A stretch of 54,609 bases of DNA from Candidatus Gastranaerophilales bacterium. Its GTDB lineage: Bacteria; Cyanobacteriota; Vampirovibrionia; Gastranaerophilales; Gastranaerophilaceae. Positions 5,904-47,585 of the stretch are shown one piece after another. A program made the position numbers and the translations under genes. Position 1 is the first letter of the stretch, and each line of letters begins with the position of its first letter. The notes under the pieces were generated by a model. The model was not told the origin of the DNA, ran no database searches, and saw nothing but the letters and a program-made list of their open reading frames with translations. The DNA is taken from assembly GCA_944322885.1 (NCBI GenBank), contig CALUQH010000001.1, positions 1-54,609 on the forward strand, written 5' to 3'.

Positions 5904-6689
5904 TTAATTAATAAATTCTCTTAAATTTTCAACCATCTTTTCTGCCGTTTCAAGGCGATTTGAAACTGAACCTACCGAAAGAGTATTAACATCCTGCTCA
6001 AAATCTTTGGGGAGTTCTTTACAGTTTGCTTTTGCAAATTGAACAAGTTTTTTCTCTCCGGGATTTAAAATTTTGTTTTTTGCAAATATTATATCAAAAT
6101 AACTTGCCAAAAATGCCGCTGTTCTGTGATTTACACTAACATAATCGTTTCTTTCAACAGCAGAATTTAACTGATCGTAGTAAGAAAACATAGCATCTTT
6201 TAAATATGCAAAATTCTTGTTTATGATATTTTGTGCTAGTTTGTCGGGGTAAGGAGATTTTGTTTTGTCCTGAAGTTTTTTAAACCATCCGTTCCTATCA
6301 AAAAGTATTTTAGATTTATTGACATTGTCAACAAAACAGGTTGTGTAACCTAAAGATGCATTACAGCCTTCCCAAACCCATTTTATATTGTCTTCAATGC
6401 TTTCTAAAGAACGATACATTATATCAATCGGCTTACCTGTTTCTCTTAAATAATAAACGTCTCCCGTCTCAAAATAATGGTTATCAATTTCAGGGTTATC
6501 CGCATATTTTTCAGCTATTTCGCGGCGTTTGTCAACAGGAGGTTCTTTTGTACAATAAATATAAATATCAAAATCTGACTTATTATCAGCAGTTTTTACA
6601 GTGGAAGATCCGCCGAGAACTATTGCCTCTACTTCATCAAATTGTTTATAATCATTTACCAACTGTGTCAAAATTTTACTGTTTTCCAT
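5904..6689 (-). CDS. Nucleotidyltransferase-domain protein (DUF4037-like)
   Basis: The 261-residue product has the minimal nucleotidyltransferase signature GGSS-x8-SDFDIYIY near residues 25-42: the Gly-Ser loop and the Asp-x-Asp metal ligands that transfer an NMP to a hydroxyl group. The helical C-terminal half (about 150-255) resembles the substrate domain of DUF4037 and streptomycin-adenylyltransferase-like proteins. The start at 6689 has AGGAG 10 bases upstream. The same frame runs open upstream to an ATG at 6827 that overlaps the stop of the acetyltransferase gene as ATGA, so a 307-residue form is also possible. It may form an operon with that acetyltransferase. The acceptor molecule is unknown. 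Confidence 0.75.
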   Translation of the reverse strand: MENSKILTQLVNDYKQFDEVEAIVLGGSSTVKTADNKSDFDIYIYCTKEPPVDKRREIAEKYADNPEIDNHYFETGDVYYLRETGKPIDIMYRSLESIEDNIKWVWEGCNASLGYTTCFVDNVNKSKILFDRNGWFKKLQDKTKSPYPDKLAQNIINKNFAYLKDAMFSYYDQLNSAVERNDYVSVNHRTAAFLASYFDIIFAKNKILNPGEKKLVQFAKANCKELPKDFEQDVNTLSVGSVSNRLETAEKMVENLREFIN

Positions 6690-6823
6690 TTTAATTATCT
6701 CTCCTGATTGTATTTTATTTTTTTCAAATTTATCGTATCCGCGAGATTGAAACGGATAGAAATTTGTATATTCCTGCATTAGTTTTGCAGGCCGAAAATT
6801 CATGATACTGACCGAATTTACCC

Positions 6824-7384
6824 TCATTGTTTAATTTCCTTTACAGGTTTACAGGGATTCCCGACTGCAAGAACATTAGCCGGAATATCTTTTACAACAA
6901 CACTTCCCGCGCCTATAACAGAATTATCTCCGATTGTAACATCCGGTAAAACAACTACATTACCGCCAAACCAGACGTTATTGCCAACTTTTATAGGTTT
7001 TGCAGTTTCAAGACCTTTATTTCTGGTTTCCGCATCCAGAGGATGAAGCGGAGTGTAAAACGCACAATTTGGGCCTATAAAAACATTATCACCGAAAGTA
7101 ACTTTTGCAGGATCAAGAATAATCAAATTATGATTTGCATAAAAGTTATCACCTATTTCAATATTGTAGCCGTAATCACATATAAAAGGCTGCTCTATTA
7201 AAAAATTTTCCTTTGTCTTACCAAGAATTTGTTTAATAATATTTTTACGCTCCTCAAGTTGTTCAGGATGAAGATTATTATATTCATAGCATAAAGACTT
7301 GCATTTAATTCTTTCATCTATCAATGATTTATCATAATTCGCATCATAAAGAAGCCCGTTTAGCATTTTTTCTTTTTCATTCAT
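6824..7384 (-). CDS. Maltose/galactoside-type O-acetyltransferase
   Basis: The 186-residue protein is a left-handed beta-helix acetyltransferase of the Maa/LacA/NodL family, using acetyl-CoA to acetylate a sugar hydroxyl. The N-terminal helical cap is EKEKMLNGLLYDANYD; hexapeptide repeats run through IEIGDNFYANHN, VTFGDNVFIGP and VTIGDNSVIGAGSVV; the catalytic histidine is that of TPLHPLD. The start at 7384 has GGAG at the right distance (9 bases), while an upstream ATG at 7393 sits directly on it. It ends in an ATGA overlap with the nucleotidyltransferase frame. The gene is divergent from an SGNH hydrolase, and together they could adjust acetyl groups on a cell-surface sugar (inference). Confidence 0.85.
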   Translation of the reverse strand: MNEKEKMLNGLLYDANYDKSLIDERIKCKSLCYEYNNLHPEQLEERKNIIKQILGKTKENFLIEQPFICDYGYNIEIGDNFYANHNLIILDPAKVTFGDNVFIGPNCAFYTPLHPLDAETRNKGLETAKPIKVGNNVWFGGNVVVLPDVTIGDNSVIGAGSVVVKDIPANVLAVGNPCKPVKEIKQ

Positions 7385-7441
7385 ATTTTTCATCTCCGTT
7401 TTATAATAATAAAATAAACATAAAAAATTTGGAGCAAAATT

Positions 7442-8056
7442 ATGAAAAAAATATTATGCTTCGGGGACAGCAACACCTACGGTTTTAATCCGAAAGACGG
7501 CTCTAGATATAATAAAGATGTTCGATGGACAGCACTTTTACAAAACAAATTAAAAGATACCTATAAAATTACGGAAGCCGGATGCAACAATCGAACAGCC
7601 TTTTCTGATAATCCCGCAGGCTTAAACTTTACCGGCTATAAAATTCTGCCTGAATATTTAAAAGAAAATTTTGATATAATAATTTTTCAAATCGGCATTA
7701 ATGATCTTCAAAAGTCTTACAATGCAAGTTTAACCTGCTTTGAAAAAGGAATGGAAAAATTTTTTAGTCTTGTAAAACATTATTCTCCATCTTCAAAAGT
7801 AATTATTCTTTCACCATGCGTTATAAAGGACAATATTTTAGACAGCTATTTCAATCTCTTTTTTGATAAAAAATCCATAGAAAAATCCAAACAAATTTCT
7901 CCTGTATATGAAAAAATTGCAAAAGAAAATAAATATCAACTGATTGATTTGAACAAATTTACAGAAACATCAAACATAGACGGGCTGCACTATACGCCGG
8001 AGCAGCATAAAATTATATGTAAGGAAATCGTTAATTGTATTAATCTTTTAAATTAG
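7442..8056 (+). CDS. SGNH/GDSL hydrolase (esterase)
   Basis: The 204-residue protein shows the ordered SGNH blocks: GDSNTYGF at residues 8-15 (Ser nucleophile), a Gly in block II, GINDL (block III Asn), and DGLHYTPE near the C-terminus (Asp and His). It is a single compact domain with no signal peptide. Members are acyl or acetyl esterases, lysophospholipases or carbohydrate deacetylases. Its neighbour on the other strand is a sugar O-acetyltransferase, which hints at an acetyl-ester substrate, but this is not proven. GGAG lies 7 bases before the ATG. Confidence 0.85.
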   Translation: MKKILCFGDSNTYGFNPKDGSRYNKDVRWTALLQNKLKDTYKITEAGCNNRTAFSDNPAGLNFTGYKILPEYLKENFDIIIFQIGINDLQKSYNASLTCFEKGMEKFFSLVKHYSPSSKVIILSPCVIKDNILDSYFNLFFDKKSIEKSKQISPVYEKIAKENKYQLIDLNKFTETSNIDGLHYTPEQHKIICKEIVNCINLLN

Positions 8057-8089
8057 CATAATATACAATGTTTTTTAGAGATTATATCA

Positions 8090-8095
8090 GATAAT
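8090..8095 (+). promoter_or_regulatory. Possible -10 box of tspO
   Basis: GATAAT ends 7 bases before the first base of the tspO start codon and no Shine-Dalgarno site is present, so the mRNA may start at the ATG itself. Weak on its own because no -35 box is visible; listed because other genes here show the same spacing. Confidence 0.3.
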
Positions 8096-8101
8096 TTGAT
8101 T

Positions 8102-8488
8102 ATGGATTTAAACTGGTATAATTCACTAAACAAACCATTACTTAATCCGCCTTCCGAAATTTTCGGGCCTGTGTGGGCGGTTATGTATACTCTCATTTTT
8201 ATTTCATTTGTTCTATTTTTAAATTCAAAAAAATCAAATAACAAAACACCGGGACTTGTTGCATTTGTAATACAACTCTTATTAAACTTCAGCTGGAGTC
8301 CGGTATTTTTCATACAACATAATTTAGCAATAAGTTTTGCAATAATTATTTTGCTAATAATATTAATAATTTTGACAATAATATTTTTCTATAAAGTATC
8401 AAAAGCAGCAGGAATAATACTTGTTCCATATCTTATTTGGACAAGCTTTGCAGCCTATTTAAACTATTCTATAATGGTGCTTAATTAA
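8102..8488 (+). CDS. TspO/MBR-family membrane protein
   Basis: The 128-residue protein has five hydrophobic segments and the family signatures WYNSLNKPLLNPPSEIFGPVW at the N-terminus and PYLIWTSFAAYLN near the C-terminus. TspO (tryptophan-rich sensory protein, homologous to the mitochondrial benzodiazepine receptor) binds tetrapyrroles and is linked to stress responses. The ATG at 8102 is preferred over an in-frame TTG at 8096. There is no ribosome site, and a GATAAT box ends 7 bases before the start. It ends one base short of the convergent AsmA-like gene with no terminator between. Confidence 0.85.
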   Translation: MDLNWYNSLNKPLLNPPSEIFGPVWAVMYTLIFISFVLFLNSKKSNNKTPGLVAFVIQLLLNFSWSPVFFIQHNLAISFAIIILLIILIILTIIFFYKVSKAAGIILVPYLIWTSFAAYLNYSIMVLN

Positions 8489-8489
8489 G

Positions 8490-11288
8490 TTACTGAATTT
8501 TCTTAAGTGACGATATGAAATTGTTATGTTGAACATCCCCGTCAACCTTTGTCAGGAATATCTGACAGTCTTTTTCTTCAGCTTCAATAGGCGGGAGCTG
8601 AGAAATTTCCGCAGCATAATAATTACTGTCATTTCTCGCACTCAAAGGAATTCTGTTTGCAAGGCTGTTAAGAGAAATATTTCTCAAAAATCCAGCAAAA
8701 CCTTTATTATTATTACTAAATTTAGTATAAATTCTCAAAGATGCATCACCTGATTCAAGTTCATAGCGTCCTACGATAAACGAACTCAACTGCGGTGCCG
8801 ATGATTTAATCATCATTTTTTCAACATTGTTATCTTTCAATTCAAGAGAACCGTTTATTTTGTCAAAATTCCCTTCCGGAATATTAACTAGATCCCCGAA
8901 AGTTGAAGGACTTATCATTGCAAGCGGATTTCTGAAAAGCGCGGCGAATTTTAAAATATATTCAACAAGCCCTACTTTTTGAATTGTTCCGTCTTTTATA
9001 TCAAACTTTATAAATCCGTTCATTTTTAAAGAATCATCCGTATTTAAGGCTATAATACCGCTAGCTTTACCTGTAATTTCCCTGGGCAGGGCTAAAAGAG
9101 TTGTTGCTATAACATCAGAATTAACATCTTTTATTCCCAAGACCAAACTGTATAAATGTTTTTTCAAATCACAGTTAATTTTAGCGGACGAATGCCCTTC
9201 TGCAATTTCGAATCTATTTGAATACATATTTAAAACACTATGCTTATCAAGAGATAATGTAGCTTTAACATCTTTAAATACAATATCCTTATATTTTCCG
9301 TTAAGTATATGCAGTACACAATTTTCAACTATAAAATTACCGATGTCAAATGTCGGAGTATTGTCATCATCATCTTTGGCTTCGCCTGATGCCGTTACAT
9401 CAAATTTTGTATCCGTAATTTCTTTTGAACTCTGGTTATTTGCTGATAACAAGAATTTTTCAATATCAACATCATCAACTGTCAAGTTAACGTCTTTTAC
9501 AACAACCGGAAACTTAATTTCATTTATAAGACTTCCTGAAAAATCATAAGAGGAACGTCTGTATTTTCCTTCTGCTGCAAGTTTTAAAAGCCCGTTTTGA
9601 GTCGACATTTCCCCATGTTTTAGATATACTCTCTGCGATGGAATTCTTACATCATCCATAGCCAAATATCCCTTTAAAGCAGGATATTTAGCAGTGTTGT
9701 TATATTCCATAATACCTGCAATTTTGCCGCCCTTAAATAATTTTTGTCCGATTAAAACATTTAAAAATTCACTCGGCAACGGGTTAGGTATTTCAAATCC
9801 TATATTTTTAACATCAGGAACAGGAGTTCCGCAGTCAATATTACCGAAAACTTTTACTACAGGTTTTGCATTTTTCTTTTGTTCTATAGAAAAAGTGTCA
9901 GGTACAATATAGTAATCTACAGATTTTATACTCAAAAGATTATCTTCAAAGTGAATATCTCCTTTAAGTCCTCTTATATATTTGTTCGGAGTCAAAGAAG
10001 CTCCGTCTATAAGAATATCCTGTCCGGCCTTCAAACCGAAGTACCAGGCAAGATCAATTTTATTATTAATAGAATTTATATCCACTCTTGTTTTTGTAGA
10101 ACCGCCCGTGAGTTCAACAGGAATACCAACCATTTTAGAAAAATAATTCTTCATAAAATCGTTTGTTACCGCAGCTTTAGCAATAACATTTGTATCCATT
10201 GTTTTCAGGTAATCTTTTACCGAACCTTCCATTTCAATTTTATTTTCACGGCGGTTATTATAATATCCGTCAAAATCTTTAAGGGTAATATCGTTTTTTG
10301 TCATAACGATTTTCCCCTTATCAAGCATTACCGGAATATTACTCAACGGAACAAGCTTGCATGATATTTTATTTAAATTAACAATACCATTCAAATCTTT
10401 CTTAGTAAGTTTTATATTGAAATTAAAACTGCCGTTTAGATCCTTAAAAAATGCTAAAGGCTGATCAAGATTATTTTCAACAATATCTGAATTAATCAAA
10501 TCCAAAACGTCTGATATATCAATGTTATCAGTAAATATTTCTAGATTATAACCTATTTTACGGCTTGCCTCAGCATTAAAAAAGATTTTAGATTTATTCA
10601 TTGAAAGATAGCAATTCTTGATATATAAAGTTTTATTCTGGGTATAAACAGCATTTCTGTCTGCAATATTAAAATGCGTATTTTTACCGTCTTTTGCAAT
10701 ATCTGCAGTTATATTAAAATGCAAATGTTTAACATCTTTCTGATTATTATCAAGTTCTAAATCATCAGCTTTTAAAGAGACATAAGTTTTGGGTTCAACT
10801 TTGTACAAGAATAAAGATTTTTTTACATACAATAGAGAATCAAACAAATCAATATTCCAATCGCTTTGCGGCTGTTCTTTCTTTTCGCTTTGAGGGGAAG
10901 CAAGTTTTGTCAAATTATTTATATCGGCAAAAATATAATCAGCACCAAGTTTTTTTATAATAATATTTTTCTTAAAAATTTCTTTAAAAGATACGGTTGT
11001 ATCAAAATTTTCAACGGCAAGCAGGCTTTCTTTATTATTAAATAACTGCATTTCATTCACTTTAAAAGAAATAACAGGAGAGAGCTCCGTCGTCAGTTTC
11101 GGATTTTTTATAACTAATTCCAAACTCGTAAATTTATTAATATTTTTTTCAACAAAGTTTATAAAAGATTTATTTGAAACTACAGCCGGCAGAACTTTCA
11201 GATAAGTTCCAAGTACTGCACCGCAAACAATTACAACAGTTCCTAATGATATGAGCGCAATTTTAACCTTTTTTGATATATTAATCAT
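8490..11288 (-). CDS. Large AsmA-family membrane-anchored protein
   Basis: A 932-residue protein with one N-terminal membrane helix (about 9-31, VKIALISLGTVVIVCGAVLG) and a very long beta-rich periplasmic part. The C-terminal 200 residues resemble the AsmA C-terminal region (GKASGIIALNTDDSLKMNG, then a KINGSLELKDNNVEKMMI segment), as in AsmA, YhdP and TamB. Proteins of this group are thought to bridge the periplasm and move phospholipids to the outer membrane. GGAGAGGG precedes the ATG at 11288; an upstream in-frame extension lacks a ribosome site. It is divergent from the WG-repeat gene. A lipid-transport role is known for the family and inferred here. Confidence 0.75.
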   Translation of the reverse strand: MINISKKVKIALISLGTVVIVCGAVLGTYLKVLPAVVSNKSFINFVEKNINKFTSLELVIKNPKLTTELSPVISFKVNEMQLFNNKESLLAVENFDTTVSFKEIFKKNIIIKKLGADYIFADINNLTKLASPQSEKKEQPQSDWNIDLFDSLLYVKKSLFLYKVEPKTYVSLKADDLELDNNQKDVKHLHFNITADIAKDGKNTHFNIADRNAVYTQNKTLYIKNCYLSMNKSKIFFNAEASRKIGYNLEIFTDNIDISDVLDLINSDIVENNLDQPLAFFKDLNGSFNFNIKLTKKDLNGIVNLNKISCKLVPLSNIPVMLDKGKIVMTKNDITLKDFDGYYNNRRENKIEMEGSVKDYLKTMDTNVIAKAAVTNDFMKNYFSKMVGIPVELTGGSTKTRVDINSINNKIDLAWYFGLKAGQDILIDGASLTPNKYIRGLKGDIHFEDNLLSIKSVDYYIVPDTFSIEQKKNAKPVVKVFGNIDCGTPVPDVKNIGFEIPNPLPSEFLNVLIGQKLFKGGKIAGIMEYNNTAKYPALKGYLAMDDVRIPSQRVYLKHGEMSTQNGLLKLAAEGKYRRSSYDFSGSLINEIKFPVVVKDVNLTVDDVDIEKFLLSANNQSSKEITDTKFDVTASGEAKDDDDNTPTFDIGNFIVENCVLHILNGKYKDIVFKDVKATLSLDKHSVLNMYSNRFEIAEGHSSAKINCDLKKHLYSLVLGIKDVNSDVIATTLLALPREITGKASGIIALNTDDSLKMNGFIKFDIKDGTIQKVGLVEYILKFAALFRNPLAMISPSTFGDLVNIPEGNFDKINGSLELKDNNVEKMMIKSSAPQLSSFIVGRYELESGDASLRIYTKFSNNNKGFAGFLRNISLNSLANRIPLSARNDSNYYAAEISQLPPIEAEEKDCQIFLTKVDGDVQHNNFISSLKKIQ

Positions 11289-11332
11289 CTTTTCCCTCTC
11301 CAAAAAAATTATAACACAAATTATCAATTTTA

Positions 11333-11341
11333 TGCTATTAT
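11333..11341 (+). promoter_or_regulatory. Extended -10 promoter of the WG-repeat gene
   Basis: TGCTATTAT fits an extended -10 (TG-n-TATAAT). It ends 7 bases before the ATG at 11348 and no Shine-Dalgarno site lies between, so the predicted transcript begins at or next to the start codon. Confidence 0.5.
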
Positions 11342-11347
11342 ACTGGT

Positions 11348-12259
11348 ATGAAGAAAATTATTACATTATTCGGGATAGCTTTAGTTTTAGGTTCAGGTGC
11401 GTTTGCACAAGAAAATCCGATGCAGCCTATTGAAGGCTCTATTGTTAAAACAAAACTAACTGTCTTTAGTGATGAAAAAAATAATTTTGGATTGAAAGAC
11501 AGTACAGGTAACGTTATTGTAGAACCTGAGTATAAAAAAATGATTAAACTCGGGGATTCCTGGATAATACAAAGGAAATCCAAATACGGGCTGATGGACA
11601 GTACAGGCAAAATCATTATTGAGCCCAAGTACAGACATGTTGACAGAATTTTAGGGAAATATGTAAAACTCGGCAACGATAATGACTTTGGAGTTTATGA
11701 TGAAAAAGGTGAAATTGTAATACCGCCGGAATACACATCGGTTAATATATTATTTGGCGGCATGTTCCTTACTAAAAAGAATTATAAATATGGTGTTTCT
11801 GATAAAAACGGAAGAGTAATACTGGAAAATAAATTTGACGATATATATATGCCTAAACCGAATATAATGAGAATACAATATAACGGTCAGTGGTACGAAG
11901 TTGAACAAATTGCAGGAGGTGAATTTGTTCCGCCCGAAGATATTCAGAATATCAAAAATGACGGGAACTTTAAAGTCACTGCATTCGTTAAAGATCCGGT
12001 TGCAGCATCAGGCTATTCTGCAGTTACTTTTACCGATTACTTCCTGAAAGTATTTTCTTCAATTTCACCAGCCCATGAAGAAACTATTGATGATTTGATG
12101 CTGTCGCAAGGTGCAGATACCGTTAATATATTTATAAAATTCACCTGGCTGCCAAAATATCCGTTTACGTTTGCAAAAAATTATTATCATACATTAAGAA
12201 CACCTAATAACGGGCCTCTTGCAGATGTAAAAACAGAACTTATTCAAAAAATGCAGTAA
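11348..12259 (+). CDS. Exported WG-repeat protein
   Basis: The 303-residue protein starts with a signal peptide (MKKIITLFGIALVLGSGAFA, cleavage after AFA). Residues about 35-170 hold at least three WG-type repeats of roughly 30 residues with the pattern G-L-x-D-S-x-G-x-I-I-x-E-P-x-Y (GLMDSTGKIIIEPKY, GVYDEKGEIVIPPEY). WG repeats form a small beta-structure seen in many exported bacterial proteins of unclear function. The C-terminal 110 residues are unassigned. There is no ribosome site; an extended -10 box ends just before the ATG. Its stop abuts the smtB stop on the other strand without a single spare base. Confidence 0.75.
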   Translation: MKKIITLFGIALVLGSGAFAQENPMQPIEGSIVKTKLTVFSDEKNNFGLKDSTGNVIVEPEYKKMIKLGDSWIIQRKSKYGLMDSTGKIIIEPKYRHVDRILGKYVKLGNDNDFGVYDEKGEIVIPPEYTSVNILFGGMFLTKKNYKYGVSDKNGRVILENKFDDIYMPKPNIMRIQYNGQWYEVEQIAGGEFVPPEDIQNIKNDGNFKVTAFVKDPVAASGYSAVTFTDYFLKVFSSISPAHEETIDDLMLSQGADTVNIFIKFTWLPKYPFTFAKNYYHTLRTPNNGPLADVKTELIQKMQ

Positions 12260-17965: not shown

Positions 17966-19129
17966 ATGACAGGAATAAACAGTTCACAGCCAATGCACCT
18001 CGGGGGGGGGGCATACCAGCTTGCCCAAATACTTGATGCCGCCGATGGAAAGAAAGACGGAAAGATAGATAAATCCGTCTGGAATAGTTTTGTTCGTGGA
18101 AAAGGCGGTAAAGAAATAAAGAATTATATAGAAATTTCAAATGCAAAAAGCTCCATTTCATATTATTTAAAAAATAATTCAAAAACATCGGGTGTAAATA
18201 TTAATAATTTAATACAGGATTGGATTGCCGGCTTAACTAAACAAAATAAAGCTTCTCAACAAAAAACTGTTGAAGCGCAAACAGTTAGTAAAAAGCCATC
18301 AGTTGTTACAAGTGAAGCACAACCTGCAGATACGAAACCTGTTGAGACGGAAACAAATCCTTTTGTAAACAGGACGAAACCTCAAACCGATAATCAATTT
18401 TCACTGGAGTCTAATCCTGCAATGGCCGGAAAAGATGTAGTACAAACAGATAAATCCGGACGTAAAACAGGAGTAATATCGTATGATTCTGCAGGTAACG
18501 TTGATTACTATTGCAGATATGAATATGACAATAACGGAAACCAGACAAAAACAGTATATTATAATCCTGATCAAACAGTGGACGCATCTTTTGTATATGA
18601 ATATGACAGTTCTGGAAATCGAATTAAAAAAACAAGTTACGATTCTGATAACAGGGTTGCTTCATTTTCCGAATATAAATATGACGATGCCGGAAAGCTG
18701 GATAGAGAAATAAGGCATTGTGACAACAGTATTGAAACACTGTATTTTAATAACAAAGGCGATGTTGATGCACGTTTATTTGATGAGTACGACAGTGCAG
18801 GAAACAAACTAAAATCAACCACATACAACTCAGACGATATGAAGGTTTCCGAATATTTATACGAATATGATACTTTGGGAAACAGAACCAGAGAAACAAG
18901 ACTCAATGATAACGGCGACATGGTTCATGAGTATTTATATGAATATGACGCTTTGGGAAACAGAACCAAAGAGACAAGATATAATTCCGACGGAAGTTTA
19001 GATAGTTATTCTTTATATGAATTTGATTCAGACGGCAATAAGACAAGAGAACAACTATATTATCCGGATTCGCCAGAATATGTAGTAATTAACTATAATC
19101 CAGATGGAAGTATTATTGAAGATATTTAG
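17966..19129 (+). CDS. YD-repeat (RHS-like) protein with a G10 tract near its start
   Basis: The 387-residue protein has no signal peptide. Residues 1-75 form a domain with a degenerate EF-hand-like loop (DGKKDGKIDKSVW); 76-150 are Lys/Gln/Thr-rich linker; 150-385 are about nine YD repeats of roughly 23 residues with the pattern Y-E-Y-D-x-x-G-N-x-x-K/R-E-T-x-Y-N-x-D-G, as in RHS and WapA wall proteins but far shorter and with no toxin or core domain. AAGGAGAG stands 8 bases before ATG. Ten G bases at 18002-18011 (codons 13-16) make the gene a candidate for phase variation: gaining or losing one G stops translation within 21 codons. Function unknown; surface or envelope role is inference. Confidence 0.75.
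   Translation: MTGINSSQPMHLGGGAYQLAQILDAADGKKDGKIDKSVWNSFVRGKGGKEIKNYIEISNAKSSISYYLKNNSKTSGVNINNLIQDWIAGLTKQNKASQQKTVEAQTVSKKPSVVTSEAQPADTKPVETETNPFVNRTKPQTDNQFSLESNPAMAGKDVVQTDKSGRKTGVISYDSAGNVDYYCRYEYDNNGNQTKTVYYNPDQTVDASFVYEYDSSGNRIKKTSYDSDNRVASFSEYKYDDAGKLDREIRHCDNSIETLYFNNKGDVDARLFDEYDSAGNKLKSTTYNSDDMKVSEYLYEYDTLGNRTRETRLNDNGDMVHEYLYEYDALGNRTKETRYNSDGSLDSYSLYEFDSDGNKTREQLYYPDSPEYVVINYNPDGSIIEDI
18002..18011. repeat. Homopolymer tract G10 inside the YD-repeat gene
   Basis: Ten consecutive G in a strongly A+T-rich genome, read as GGG GGG GGG G in codons 13-16. The present length keeps the frame open. With 11 G the frame meets TGA 8 codons later, and with 9 G it meets TAG within 18 codons. 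Confidence 0.9.
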
Positions 19130-33880: not shown

Positions 33881-34237
33881 ATGCTACAAGAATTTATTAG
33901 TTCAAAAATACACAGAGCAACGGTTACAGACGCAAATCTAAATTATGTGGGATCTATAACTATTGATGAAACGCTTATGAAAGCTTCAAAAATCCAAGAA
34001 TGGCAGAAAGTTGATATTCTTGATATTAATAACGGAGAAAGATTTCATACATACGTTATTAAAGGAAAAGCCGATTCCGGTATGATTTGCCTTAATGGTG
34101 CTGCAGCAAGAAAAGTACAGCCAGGAGATAAGGTTATAATAATTGCATACGGACTTTATAACCCTGAAGAAATGAACAATTACAAACCCAAGATTGTAAT
34201 CGTTGATGATAATAATAAAATTTCTAGTATTCAATAG
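33881..34237 (+). CDS. panD: Aspartate 1-decarboxylase
   Basis: The 118-residue proenzyme cleaves itself between Gly24 and Ser25 (YVGSITID) to form the pyruvoyl group that decarboxylates aspartate to beta-alanine for pantothenate and coenzyme [15 protein letters not shown] at the start, RFHTYVIKG near 49-57 and [21 protein letters not shown] match the family throughout, and the length is normal. Other pan genes are not nearby. Its last 14 bases overlap the end of the convergent XRE regulator gene. Confidence 0.96.
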
Positions 34238-34538
34238 ATTTATAAAAATTATATAGAAGTTTAACAAGCTTTGGTTGGTCTTCTAAAGCTTGTTTTAATT
34301 CGTTTTTCATATCCTCATCAGATATGTCAGTAAAATAATAAAATTCCCATGGCGCAACTTGTAATGCTTCGGATAATTTTTGAAGGGTCTCTACTGAAGG
34401 TGAATACTTACCTGTTTCCAAATAACTTAAACTTGGAGTTTCAATATTAATAAGTTCTGCCAGTTTTTCTTGAGTAAACCCTTTAGATTTACGAATAGTT
34501 TGAATTTTTTTGCCTAACAATTTTTTAAAATCAGACAT
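34224..34538 (-). CDS. XRE-family helix-turn-helix regulator
   Basis: The 104-residue protein has a Cro/CI-type DNA-binding domain at residues 8-63 ([22 protein letters not shown], then [20 protein letters not shown]) and a helical tail of about 35 residues. AAGAGG precedes the ATG. It lies between panD (tail to tail, 14-base overlap) and the prepilin-fusion gene (head to head across 132 bases), so the latter is its most likely target besides itself. No toxin partner is seen. Ligand unknown. Confidence 0.88.
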
Positions 34539-34606: not shown

Positions 34607-34635
34607 TTGACTATTAATGCAATATAAGATAAAAT
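34607..34635 (+). promoter_or_regulatory. Promoter of the prepilin-adhesin fusion gene
   Basis: TTGACT at 34607-34612 and TAAAAT at 34630-34635 with 17 bases between form a good sigma-70-type promoter. The start would be near 34642, leaving a 29-base leader with GGGAG before the ATG at 34671. Confidence 0.6.
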
Positions 34636-34670
34636 ATAAATAGTTACATTAAATTTATGGGAGTATTTTA

Positions 34671-36539
34671 ATGTTAAAGATTAAGCCAGGTTTTACATTA
34701 GCCGAAATGATGGTAGTAATGTTAATTTTGAGTATAGTCATGGCAGCAATGGCGCCTGTAATGACGACCCGTAATAAACTGGATCAGTCATCCCCGTGGC
34801 AATGGTCAACCAACGGCTCTGATGCCTATTATGGTCTGGGAGATGCACAGGTAGCCATGATAGGTCAGCAGGAAGCTCAAAACGAAGATGCCGGAGCCCG
34901 TTTGGTTATCAATACTGGAGACGGTAAGGACCATATCTTATTTAAAACGGATGAAACAGTTCTGGGACGTTTAAAGTTTGAGAACAACGGATTATTGCTC
35001 GGGAATTTGGCAAGCGGTAATCTGGTAGAGAATTCTGTAGCTATCGGACGAAATACCCGTGTTTCGGTAGAGGATTCAACGGCAGTTGGTACTAATGCAT
35101 CGGCTCCGAACAATAATGCAACAGCGTTAGGTTATGGCGCTGAATCAAACGGTTATGCATCAATAGCCATAGGCGGAAGTTCAAATGGCGGTCATTCGGC
35201 TCAAGCAACAACTGACGGTTCAATAGCTATCGGCGGGAACTCATATACCGGAGGATTAAATAGTATTGCAATAGGCTTGGGTGCAAATGCCAATGCTGAA
35301 AATAGTATTGCAATCGGTCTGAATACAAGAAATTTGGCTGGCGGTACAAACAGTATTGCAATTGGTCAAAACAATACAGTTAGTACTATTGACGGCATAA
35401 TTTTAGGTAACTCAAATACTATTTCTTCTGGCGGTATAGCCATTGGTAAATCAGTACATACAGGTTTATACGGTGTGGCCATAGGAGTCAATAGTGATGC
35501 TAGTGACGGTGTAGCCATAGGCGGGAGTGCTACTGAGAATTTTGGAGCAGTATCCGGTTATCATTCTATAGCTATCGGTCCAGGTGCCGAAGCTGCGGAT
35601 TATTCAACGGCTATAGGTTACAATGCAACATCTTCGGCCGCTTGGGCAACATCTTTAGGTTACTCTTCACAAACGTCAGAACGTTATGCAACGGCAGTGG
35701 GATATAATTCTGTAGCTTCTGCTTATTATGCAACAGCACTTGGTTACAATGCTGAAGCTTCCGGTACTCATTCTATAGCTATAGGATCGGTTAATGCTGC
35801 TTCTGAAACCAACTCAATAGCTATTGGCTGGGGTACAAATGCATCGAAAGCCAATAATGTAGCAATTGGTGGTTCTGCATGCTATGCTGCTACGGGCAGT
35901 GGCGTAACCTGTATAGGTGCAAATTCCGGGCCTGTTGCCGGTTCCTCTTTAACAAGTGCTTCTAATATAGTATATCTGGGAAATTCAAATGATACAGTAT
36001 ATATTCCGGGTAATTTGGTTGTTGATAATCATGTTTTATTAAATAGGAATAGTAATAGCAAAATCTACTTTCGAGAAGGAGATGGAAACAAAAATATATT
36101 TATGTTTGCTAAAGCAGATTCATCTGGGAAAGCTATGCATGGTAGTTCAATGTATGGAACGATAAATGTCGGAGTATTTGATGCTACAGGTTTTGTTACC
36201 GCTATTGATGGGATAAATTCTGACCGTCGTTTGAAATACGTCAGTAAAGAAAACACATCAGGTTTAGATAAAATAAAACAATTAAAAGTATTTAATTACA
36301 CCTTTAAAAAAGATGAAAAGAAAACTCCACATGTAGGTGTAATTGCTCAAGATTTGCAAAAAGTTTTTCCTGATGCGGTAAAAAAAGGAGTTGACGGCTT
36401 TTTAAACATACGTATGGAAGATATGTTTTTTGCAATGATAAATGCAATTAAAGAACTTGATGCAAAATATCAGGCGCAGGAAGCACGTATCAATGAACTT
36501 GAAGCCCGTATAGAAAAATTAGAAGCAAGAATTAAATAA
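34671..36539 (+). CDS. Prepilin/YadA-head/S74-chaperone fusion protein
   Basis: The 622-residue protein combines three parts. (1) A type IV prepilin leader: MLKIKPG|FTLAEMMVV with Glu at +5 of the mature form and a hydrophobic helix to about residue 32. (2) Residues about 110-445: about twenty copies of the YadA-head/Hep_Hag signature (NSIAIG, YATALG and similar), the left-handed beta-roll of trimeric autotransporter adhesins. (3) Residues about 515-622: an endosialidase-type intramolecular chaperone (peptidase S74) with the Ser517/Lys522 self-cleavage pair in NSDRRLK, HVGVIAQDLQKVFPDAV, and a closing coiled coil (NELEARIEKLEARIK). It has no YadA beta-barrel anchor. Inferred role: trimeric surface fibre displayed through the pilin export system. 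Confidence 0.88.
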   Translation: MLKIKPGFTLAEMMVVMLILSIVMAAMAPVMTTRNKLDQSSPWQWSTNGSDAYYGLGDAQVAMIGQQEAQNEDAGARLVINTGDGKDHILFKTDETVLGRLKFENNGLLLGNLASGNLVENSVAIGRNTRVSVEDSTAVGTNASAPNNNATALGYGAESNGYASIAIGGSSNGGHSAQATTDGSIAIGGNSYTGGLNSIAIGLGANANAENSIAIGLNTRNLAGGTNSIAIGQNNTVSTIDGIILGNSNTISSGGIAIGKSVHTGLYGVAIGVNSDASDGVAIGGSATENFGAVSGYHSIAIGPGAEAADYSTAIGYNATSSAAWATSLGYSSQTSERYATAVGYNSVASAYYATALGYNAEASGTHSIAIGSVNAASETNSIAIGWGTNASKANNVAIGGSACYAATGSGVTCIGANSGPVAGSSLTSASNIVYLGNSNDTVYIPGNLVVDNHVLLNRNSNSKIYFREGDGNKNIFMFAKADSSGKAMHGSSMYGTINVGVFDATGFVTAIDGINSDRRLKYVSKENTSGLDKIKQLKVFNYTFKKDEKKTPHVGVIAQDLQKVFPDAVKKGVDGFLNIRMEDMFFAMINAIKELDAKYQAQEARINELEARIEKLEARIK

Positions 36540-45095: not shown

Positions 45096-47585
45096 TTATT
45101 TAACCACAATATTAACTAACTTTTTCGGAACAACAATAGTTTTGACAATAGTTTTTCCTTCTGTCAGTTCTTTTATTTTTTCACTGGACAAAGCAAGAGC
45201 TTTTAGTTCGTCTTCAGACAATGCCTCATCAGCATCAATTTTGTCCTTAACCTTACCGTTAACCTGAATAACTAAAGTAATTGAACTTGCTTTGGCGAGA
45301 TTTTCATCCCATTTCGGCCATTCAACATCATGAATTGAACCTTCACCGCCCAAATCACTCCAGGCTTCTTCTGTCAAATGAACTGCAACAGGCGACATAA
45401 GTTTGATTAAAGAAACAATTGCAAAACTCAAAACTGCTTTATCTTCTTCATCCAATTGAGCTTTTTTGCCTCTCCAATCATATATTGCATTAACAAGTTC
45501 TCTGTATTTGGAAATTACAGTATTAAACTGGAAATCATTTGAAATGTCATTTGTAATTCCCTTAATTGCAATATGAACAAGACGAACCATATCGTCATTC
45601 TCTTTTTTGAGTGAAGAGTGGAGAGTGAAGGGTGAAACGGTAATATATTCAGCATTTGAAGAGATTAATCTCCAAACCCTGTTCAGGAATTTGTAACAGC
45701 CTTCAACGCCTGCATCTGACCAGTCAAAATCACGTGCCGGCGGTGAATCAGAAAGTATAAACAATCTTGCTGTATCAGCGCCGTAATTTTCGAATATTTC
45801 GTCAGGGTCAACTGTATTACCTTTTGATTTTGACATTTTTGAACCATCTTTCAAGACCATACCCTGAGTTAGAAGATTTTTAAACGGTTCATCAAAGTCA
45901 AGAAGTCCCAAATCTCTTAAAGCTTTTGTAAAAAATCTTGAGTAAAGAAGGTGTAAAATTGCGTGCTCAATACCGCCGACATACTGGTCAACCGGAAGCC
46001 ATTTATTTACCTTGTCTTTTGCAAACGGCATTTTATCATTTTTTGCATCGGAATAACGAAGGTAATACCAGCTTGAGCATACAAATGTATCCATAGTATC
46101 GGTTTCACGTCTTGCAGGGCCGCCGCAGCAAGGACATGTTGTATTTATAAATGTCTTTGATGTGGTTATCGGAGATTTTCCGACAACGCTGAAATCAACA
46201 TCTTTCGGAAGTAATACCGGTAACTGATCTTCAGGTACAGGCTGAATTCCGCATTTATCGCAATATACAACAGGAATAGGAGCACCCCAGTATCTTTGTC
46301 TTGATACAAGCCAATCTCTTAATCTGTATTGAGTTTTAAATTCTCCAAATCCGCCATCAACAGCCTTCTGAGTAATAGCTTTTTTTGCTTCTTCGTTATT
46401 CATTCCGTCAAATTCGTTGGAATTAACAAGAATACCGGGTTCTGTATAGGCTTCTGTAAGTTCCCTCGCCCCTTGTGGGAGAGGGGTAGGGTGAGGGGTA
46501 ATAACTTCTTTTACAGGCAGGTTATATTTCTTAGCGAAATCAAAGTCTCTTGTATCATGGGCCGGAACCGCCATAACAGCACCCGTTCCGTATTCCACAA
46601 GTGCATAATCTGCAGTCCACAGCGGGAATTTTTCACCTGTAAACGGATTTATGCAATGTGTTCCTAGAGGAACCCCTGTTTTAACTCTGTCAGTAGATAG
46701 TCTTTCAATCTCCGTCATTTTACGCGCGTTAGCACGGTACGCTTCAACAGCTTCTTTATTTTCCGGAGTTGTTAATTTTTCAATATCTTTGTATTCGGGA
46801 GCAACAACAAGATAAGTTATACCGTGAACAGTATCAGGTCTTGTTGTATAAACAGGAACTTCCAAATCATTTTCAACGACTTTAAATTTTAAAATTGCAC
46901 CTTGAGATTTACCAATCCAGTTTGCCTGCATTGTTTTAACGTTATCACCCCATCCCGGCAATTTGTCTAAATCTTCAAGAAGAACTTCCGCATAGTCTGT
47001 AATCTTTAAGAACCACTGGGAAAGATATTTTTTCTCAACAACATGGTCGCATCTCCAGCATTTGCCGTCTATAACCTGTTCGTTTGCAAGAACGGTTCCA
47101 CATTCTTCACACCAGTTTACAGCAGCTTCTTTTTTATAAGCAAGACCTTTTTTATACAATTGGAGGAAAAGCCACTGCGTCCATTTATAATAATCAGGTT
47201 TGCAGGTTGTAACTTCTCTGTCCCAATCATAAGAAAGTCCAAGCATTTTTAATTGTTTTGTCATATATGCAATATTTTCATCAGTCCAGGTTTCGGGATT
47301 TGCTCCATGTTTCATTGCGGCATTTTCAGCGGGGAGACCGAAGCTGTCCCAGCCCATCGGATGAAGGACATTATAACCGTTCATCTTTTTAAAACGGGCA
47401 ATAACATCTGTTATTGTATAATTCCTGACATGACCCATGTGAAGTTTACCGGACGGGTAAGGAAACATTGATAACGCGTAATATTTAGGTTTGTCACTGT
47501 TATCAGGGGTTTTAAAAACATCTTTTTCTTCCCATATTTTTTGCCATTTTTTTTCTATTTCCTGTGGAAAATAAGCATCTTTCAT
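45096..47585 (-). CDS. leuS: Leucyl-tRNA synthetase with two repeat-derived insertions
   Basis: The 829-residue class I synthetase charges tRNA-Leu. HIGH-type motif GKLHMGHVRNYTI and KMSKS motif DGSKMSKSKGNTVDP bracket the catalytic core; a zinc-knuckle CEECGTVLANEQVIDGKCWRC and CDKCGIQP...CPCC, the CP1 editing domain (VAPEYKDIEKL to YGTGAVMAVPAHDTRDFD) and the C-terminal anticodon domain are present. Two segments look foreign: residues about 362-375 (ITPHPTPLPQGARE), encoded by a G+C-rich palindromic repeat, and about 650-659 (SPFTLHSSLK), encoded by a heptanucleotide tandem repeat. Both sit in loops and keep the frame. AGGAGAG precedes the ATG. Confidence 0.95.
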   Translation of the reverse strand: MKDAYFPQEIEKKWQKIWEEKDVFKTPDNSDKPKYYALSMFPYPSGKLHMGHVRNYTITDVIARFKKMNGYNVLHPMGWDSFGLPAENAAMKHGANPETWTDENIAYMTKQLKMLGLSYDWDREVTTCKPDYYKWTQWLFLQLYKKGLAYKKEAAVNWCEECGTVLANEQVIDGKCWRCDHVVEKKYLSQWFLKITDYAEVLLEDLDKLPGWGDNVKTMQANWIGKSQGAILKFKVVENDLEVPVYTTRPDTVHGITYLVVAPEYKDIEKLTTPENKEAVEAYRANARKMTEIERLSTDRVKTGVPLGTHCINPFTGEKFPLWTADYALVEYGTGAVMAVPAHDTRDFDFAKKYNLPVKEVITPHPTPLPQGARELTEAYTEPGILVNSNEFDGMNNEEAKKAITQKAVDGGFGEFKTQYRLRDWLVSRQRYWGAPIPVVYCDKCGIQPVPEDQLPVLLPKDVDFSVVGKSPITTSKTFINTTCPCCGGPARRETDTMDTFVCSSWYYLRYSDAKNDKMPFAKDKVNKWLPVDQYVGGIEHAILHLLYSRFFTKALRDLGLLDFDEPFKNLLTQGMVLKDGSKMSKSKGNTVDPDEIFENYGADTARLFILSDSPPARDFDWSDAGVEGCYKFLNRVWRLISSNAEYITVSPFTLHSSLKKENDDMVRLVHIAIKGITNDISNDFQFNTVISKYRELVNAIYDWRGKKAQLDEEDKAVLSFAIVSLIKLMSPVAVHLTEEAWSDLGGEGSIHDVEWPKWDENLAKASSITLVIQVNGKVKDKIDADEALSEDELKALALSSEKIKELTEGKTIVKTIVVPKKLVNIVVK
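45609..45636. repeat. Four 7-base tandem repeats inside leuS
   Basis: GAGTGAA, GAGTGGA, GAGTGAA and GGGTGAA follow one another without gaps (28 bases). They encode residues about 650-659 in the loop before the anticodon-binding domain. The TTCACTC-type heptamer is familiar as an intergenic repeat in many genomes. Confidence 0.75.
46462..46500. repeat. G+C-rich palindromic repeat element inside leuS
   Basis: A 39-base block of about two-thirds G+C in an A+T-rich gene, read on the minus strand as the widespread CCCCTCACCCTA/ACCCCTCTCCC type of repeat with CCCTC/GAGGG complementarity. It adds 13 codons (TPHPTPLPQGARE) without breaking the frame, like Rickettsia palindromic elements in coding genes. 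Confidence 0.7.

Follow-up and report, generated by a model that had tools for sequence, protein, structure and literature searches.

Mosaic adhesive trimer (MAT) fibres of Bdellovibrio are trimeric bacterial surface fibres with mosaic tips, and one subgroup of them ends in a self-cleaving S74 domain with an SDxxxK motif, encoded by many paralogues per genome; self-cleavage at S782 has been described for one such fibre, and S74-driven trimerisation and release have been tested for Bd3182 (PMC10769870). S74 cleavage and trimerisation have been described for MYRF (PMC3742443), and the type IVb pilus proteins TcpB and CofB are homotrimeric tip minor pilins, the pilin helices of TcpB having been modelled as entering the filament as its first subunits (PMC9565799). 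Trimeric autotransporter adhesins of type Vc (YadA, BpaC, BoaA) carry head repeats and are anchored at their C terminus. TcpB and CofB consist of a full pilin domain with a lectin-like end, and are not known to have an S74 domain or a YadA head. In the gut commensal Bifidobacterium breve, a G-tract within the first gene of a sortase pilus sets the reading frame (PMC9187656). Here we describe S74-prepilins, proteins of gut Gastranaerophilales in which the phage S74 chaperone is joined to YadA-type adhesin repeats and a type IV pilin leader, parts of three systems regarded as separate. This is a genuine fusion, and apparently an undescribed way of building an adhesin. A literature search for S74, pilin and YadA fusions, for pili of Gastranaerophilales or Melainabacteria and for phase variation, most subscription papers lying outside its range, turned up no description of either the fusion or the poly-G/C tracts discussed below; the excerpts of two articles (PMC5877343, PMC4451040) report pilus genes only.

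The gene was found in the window, that is, the whole stretch of DNA analysed (54,609 nucleotides of the forward strand of contig 1, CALUQH010000001.1, in the draft Candidatus Gastranaerophilales genome GCA_944322885.1, which spans 1.86 Mb and is 97.7% complete). It lies at 34671-36539 on the forward strand, from an ATG at 34671 to a stop at 36537-36539, and its product has 622 amino acids. Residues 1-7 (34671-34691) form a class III prepilin leader, MLKIKPG, recognised by Pfam N_methyl (residues 7-27, E 2.8e-7, 30.2 bits against a cut-off of 21.2) and by the NCBIfam prepilin cleavage/methylation model TIGR02532. The features looked for in a prepilin leader, namely Gly or Ala at -1, Glu at +5, a hydrophobic helix and Pro22, are all present: the sequence reads MLKIKPG/FTLAEMM (slash at the cleavage motif), with Gly7 at -1, Glu12 at +5 and Pro29 as Pro22 of the mature chain. 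The predicted pilin alpha1-N helix, which contains Glu+5 and Pro22, follows at residues 8-33 (34692-34769; AlphaFold2 (AF2) and alignment), and then a linker with an SPW motif and a small beta region at residues 34-118 (34770-35024; AF2 model, Foldseek and alignment). The YadA-like head occupies residues 119-440 (35025-35990), as judged from the Pfam YadA_head match (E 1.6e-35, in 10 stretches of the protein) and the AF2 beta-roll. A variable, beta-rich stem (residues 441-516, 35991-36218), delimited by alignment in a region where AF2 confidence is low, leads to the Peptidase_S74 domain (residues 517-571, 36219-36383; Pfam E 4.5e-16) with the conserved dyad Ser517/Lys522 and predicted cleavage before Ser517, and the protein ends in a coiled-coil-like helix (residues 582-622, 36414-36536). 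All these parts lie on the forward strand.

The initial annotation had placed a prepilin leader, a YadA-like head and an S74 chaperone in one protein, and this is borne out by the three Pfam matches, each above its curated cut-off and all in a single frame; these independent matches, recurring across the bacterial order, are not a chance assembly. Its leader cleavage motif after Gly7 with Glu at +5 agrees, as a motif, with the sequence, N_methyl and TIGR02532, its estimate of about twenty head repeats compares with the 21 that we counted by eye in the translation, and its Ser517/Lys522 pair is correctly positioned and, together with Asp518, invariant in alignments of 15 and 41 sequences. Like the S74 domains of phage endosialidases and MYRF, the domain has Ser and Lys five residues apart and a helix behind it (PMC3742443); unlike them, it is joined to a prepilin. 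Like the MATs of the S74 subgroup, S74-prepilins combine a C-terminal S74 domain of the SDxxxK type with many paralogues per genome, trimer formation and cleavage being predicted here; MATs, in contrast, are described as starting with a signal peptide, behind which comes a conserved beta-rich domain, and that description sets them apart from proteins with a prepilin leader and YadA-type heads (PMC10769870). The likeness does not imply predation by S74-prepilin bearers.

To place the window protein within its lineage, we analysed 60 S74 loci from genomes of the family (L065-L124) and 80 from a named genome collection (L214-L293), most of the latter titled Candidatus Gastranaerophilales or Melainabacteria and the rest vaguely titled or apparently mislabelled. 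The S74 profile detected 145 ORFs in these 140 loci; the two sets of loci come partly from the same assemblies and the 145 were not deduplicated, so that these ORFs are not independent, whereas the 97 S74-prepilins used below were deduplicated on 200 nt. Of the 111 S74 ORFs whose 5' end is complete, 110 carry a prepilin motif, counted by profile, since a fixed motif pattern overlooks the leader of L095 (one of 60 loci) and several FTLAEA or YTLAE leaders; at the sole exception, L230, a prepilin lies just upstream in a different frame. The initial annotation had regarded homologues without the prepilin part as a sign of an assembly or annotation accident. Such an accident is ruled out by this recurrence; on viral contigs, the motif was present in 0 of 64 S74 ORFs whose 5' end is complete. 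One locus came from outside the family but within the order, and both of its S74 ORFs carry the prepilin motif; none was found at one S74 locus of a distant member of the phylum. The window protein is not a one-off chimera, and is a member of a lineage-wide S74-prepilin family. Three records titled Fusobacterium sp. CAG:439 or Heliobacteriaceae bacterium (L224, L280, L290) match the family, and their titles look wrong.

Within the family, alignments and profiles indicate that both ends are fixed and that the middle varies. Mature Phe1, Glu5 and Pro22 are invariant among 52 aligned sequences, as are Trp36 and Gly58 of the linker in the same mature-chain numbering; the dyad reads Ser-Asp...Lys in 143 of the 145 S74 ORFs (two read by eye) and Cys-Asp...Lys in 2. 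Among 41 full-length sequences, profiles detected S74 in 41, N_methyl in 39 and YadA_head in 34. S74 occurs in 72 of 146 family genomes and 23 of 41 genera, and its absence from the other 74 genomes marks the protein as accessory; across the phylum, 107 of 386 genomes carry it, of which 92 belong to this family, 3 to the same order and 12 lie elsewhere (counted by hand). The window's genome has four S74 matches, and other genomes have up to 12. One of the four (C20) has the same N terminus as the window protein, while the C3 and C10 copies run off the starts of their contigs and are probably whole genes cut at repeats, because two further prepilin N termini of this kind end contigs 19 and 33. 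At L293 (UBA1186), the reading frames of three S74-prepilins overlap within 6601-11740, suggesting an operon, and several genomes have three S74 matches close together, so that heterotrimers are conceivable.

The route by which such a protein might reach the surface was considered in the light of the genome's machinery. We take the cell to be diderm on the strength of KdsD/KdsC-like genes read from the ORF translations of the window. Like trimeric autotransporters, the window protein has head repeats and a predicted beta-roll; unlike them, its anchor is N-terminal, and no YadA_anchor barrel was detected by Pfam in its 622 residues or by profile in any of 142 family genomes, the profile control being positive in Escherichia coli. 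This excludes an autotransporter with a hidden barrel. The window's genome encodes one secretin, beside a PilB-like ATPase (T2SSE and MshEN) and a PilC-like protein. It also has a single A24 prepilin peptidase, which includes its N-terminal domain. With no barrel in those 142 genomes and the machine genes in place, the barrel route seems to be unavailable and the pilin route open.

An AF2 monomer of the window protein, computed from an alignment with 40 relatives (mean pLDDT 74.9), shows a helix at residues 10-32, a beta-roll across the repeats and a helix at 582-621; mean pLDDT is 93-98 in the beta-roll from about residue 300 to 420 and low in the S74 region. In a Foldseek search with this model, the best solved match was the BpaC head (7o23, E 7.1e-7), followed by BoaA, CbpF and YadA, and the nearest solved sequences are the heads of YadA and BpaC and the S74 domain of MYRF. 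A separate model of the N terminus gives helices at 3-19 and 21-25 of the mature chain, broken near Pro22; its small beta region had no Foldseek match at E <= 0.001, at moderate model confidence. The globular alpha/beta-roll domain of pilins is absent after the helix in both models, again at moderate confidence, and on these models the pilin part is the alpha1-N helix only. Like TcpB and CofB, which are modelled at the pilus tip, the window protein sets a prepilin-type N terminus on a beta-rich distal part, and we infer a homotrimer here too; unlike it, they keep a full pilin domain (PMC9565799). Given a lone alpha1-N helix and the bulk of the presumed trimer, the shaft of a pilus is an unlikely place for the protein, and the tip a likelier one. 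The initial suggestion that the fusion is routed through the pilin system thus gains from the conserved fusion, the missing YadA barrels and the pilus machine, but can hardly extend to a place in the shaft.

We lean towards the view that the window protein is a trimeric surface adhesin delivered through the type IV pilus route and not an outer-membrane barrel, folded and trimmed by S74, anchored by its pilin helix and shown at the pilus tip. On this proposal, the prepilin leader would put each chain in the inner membrane, where PilD would cut after Gly7. In the periplasm, by analogy with the S74 family, the S74 domain and the coiled coil would gather three chains and aid folding of the beta-roll heads, after which S74 would cut before Ser517 and depart. 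Three alpha1-N helices with Glu5 and Pro22 may then hold the trimer, which the pilus machine could take up as its first three subunits, as modelled for TcpB, and push out through the secretin, leaving the head at the pilus tip with the surface exposed by the loss of S74 as the presumed binding end. If true, this would let intertwined trimers reach the surface without an outer-membrane barrel, and it would offer a concrete adhesion mechanism for a gut lineage of which little has been cultured.

That the protein enters a pilus cannot be taken for granted, because the alpha1 helix ends near residue 32 with no pilin domain behind it, unlike domain 1 of TcpB and CofB. The protein might instead be a periplasmic or envelope-spanning fibre held in the inner membrane, its prepilin helix merely an anchor and its trimer outside any pilus; the modelled helix of about 25 residues, followed by a flexible linker and no globular pilin domain, would suit such a fibre. 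We regard this as unlikely, since an ordinary anchor would need no PilD-type leader and since Glu+5 and Pro22 are invariant in the 52 sequences. In type IV pilins these two residues matter for pilus packing and not for mere anchoring. A less probable variant, which we consider doubtful, would make the prepilin part a pseudopilin-like carrier with which the machine expels the trimer, the head being released as a secreted binding protein. The finding of one secretin only, which pili and secretion may share, fits this variant; S74 cleavage would free the C-terminal chaperone and not the head, however, and no known cleavage site was seen between helix and head. A domesticated or resident phage tail fibre that gained a prepilin leader by chance is very improbable, for although PHROGs gives phage tail-fibre matches over the head and S74 region, the surrounding genes look like housekeeping genes in their ORF translations, the fusion is lineage-wide and the viral S74 ORFs lack the motif. 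The tip adhesin remains our preferred reading.

The window copy is probably expressed from its own promoter under a divergent regulator, as judged from conserved sequence. A sigma-70-like promoter on the forward strand (34607-34635) has TTGACT at -35 (34607-34612), a 17-nt spacer and TAAAAT at -10 (34630-34635), and a Shine-Dalgarno-like GGGAG (34659-34663, forward strand) lies 7 nt ahead of the ATG. When six loci were aligned, the promoter proved to be kept in five relatives, all of which read TATAAT at -10. Divergently encoded on the reverse strand at 34224-34538 is an XRE-type regulator of 104 amino acids (Pfam HTH_3, E 1.9e-14), 76-81% identical in the five relatives with the conserved locus. 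The inference in the initial annotation, that a strong promoter and an adjacent XRE gene suggest control, stands for the window copy in view of this conservation. Among the 97 S74-prepilins whose upstream sequence runs to 400 nt or more, 11, the window gene included, have a divergent XRE neighbour.

The window gene has no homopolymer tract in its 5' coding region, whereas its C20 paralogue has a G10 tract that is out of frame, and 16 of 53 S74-prepilins of the named records have a tract, in mixed states. A run of eight or more G or C counted as a tract if it lay no further than 330 nt ahead of the cleavage motif. Prepilin repertoires are very large in the genus, with 9 to 146 N_methyl matches per genome in 33 genomes of about 1.6-2.2 Mb; the window's genome has 91 at E <= 0.1 and 80 at E <= 0.001. 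In this genome, 57 of 87 real prepilin motif rows (88 with one false match) have a tract, for example L007, L014, L024 and L035, and the tract is exactly 10 long in 49 of the 57. By hand comparison, 29 of 34 tracts among those listed for this genome lie no more than about 310 nt upstream of an N_methyl match. The start codon was taken as that with the best Shine-Dalgarno score ahead of the tract, a kind of rule that gave the right frame in 28 of 29 scorable prepilins without tracts (31 rows, one a false motif match). On this basis 46 of the 57 tract genes need a shift of +1 (or -2), 5 need -1 and 6 are in frame, the last count being slightly low because at L007 and L161 the chosen start is out of frame although another is in frame. 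Most are out of frame with a tract of 10 but would be in frame with one of 11, and in-frame 11s and 8s occur. An in-frame ATG follows the tract in 18 of the 57 (by eye), which weakens the case for these genes, and stops between tract and motif make tract control uncertain at L173 and L185.

Tracts also occur in related genomes. G188 has them in 24 of 36 prepilins over 400 kb; 22 of these tracts are 10 long and need +1 without exception, and the 2 tracts of 11 are in frame. Over 400 kb of G164 the count is 14 of 21, with 12 tracts of 10 that need +1, and over 240 kb of G073 it is 2 of 3 (one needing +1, one in frame). Exact tracts over the 33 genus genomes number 148 G9, 1621 G10 and 150 G11, a sharp peak at 10. 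Genomes G342 and G426 are exceptions, having 128 and 96 N_methyl matches with 3 and 0 exact G10 tracts, and the L006 group of pilins, 64-88% identical across species, is without tract. Binomial statistics on tracts would overstate the evidence, as prepilin paralogues share ancestry.

We think that the tracts probably, if by no means surely, represent phase variation with OFF as the default. A rather unlikely alternative is programmed slippage, transcriptional or ribosomal, which would let every G10 gene be expressed at a low level. It would explain the uniformity of tract length and the same shift needed by those 46 genes, but it sits poorly with the in-frame 11s and 8s and with two near-identical leaders of one genome, of which L250 has G10 and is in frame and L278 has G11 and is out of frame. 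A comparison of tract lengths between orthologues told us little, close tract-bearing pairs being few; in G164 it picked out two neighbouring paralogues, one with G10 and the other with G11. Under default-OFF phase variation, a poly-G tract lying after the start codon and before the prepilin cleavage site would gate some of the other S74-prepilin copies. The B. breve switch concerns sortase pili at one or two loci (PMC9187656), whereas in Gastranaerophilales tens of type IV prepilin genes per genome are involved. Joining both parts, we tentatively suggest, at rather less than even confidence, that in gut Gastranaerophilales the trimeric adhesin has been remade on the basis of the type IV pilus, as YadA-like pilus tips folded and trimmed by S74, and that much of their prepilin repertoire, tens of genes per genome, works as a combinatorial default-OFF surface switch in which a G10 or C10 leader tract keeps each pilin out of frame and slippage to 11 (or 8) brings individual genes into expression. 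If true, the adhesin together with poly-G-gated prepilins would give a testable model of surface change in this lineage.

We also considered whether the XRE regulator and the tract are mutually exclusive controls. Among the 97 S74-prepilins, 0 have both, 17 a tract only, 11 an XRE gene only and 69 neither; since chance alone would give about 1.9 with both, the counts do not point to exclusion.

Relatives with G/C tracts in prepilin genes include L217, L232, L250 and L278. At L027, L168, L174, L187, L190, L192, L200 and L212, a PSLIREG-like sequence recurs downstream of the tract and ahead of the cleavage site and lengthens the prepilin leader. Within the window, a G10 run at 18002-18011 lies in the 5' coding region of a non-pilin gene, an ORF from about 17967 on the forward strand that encodes a YD-like (RHS-type) repeat protein and is in frame at 10. 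In a LeuRS-like ORF of the window (45096-47585), the stretch TPHPTPLPQGAREL lies within the coding frame and resembles a repeat element that is translated in frame, and similar stretches occur in other frames in the lineage.
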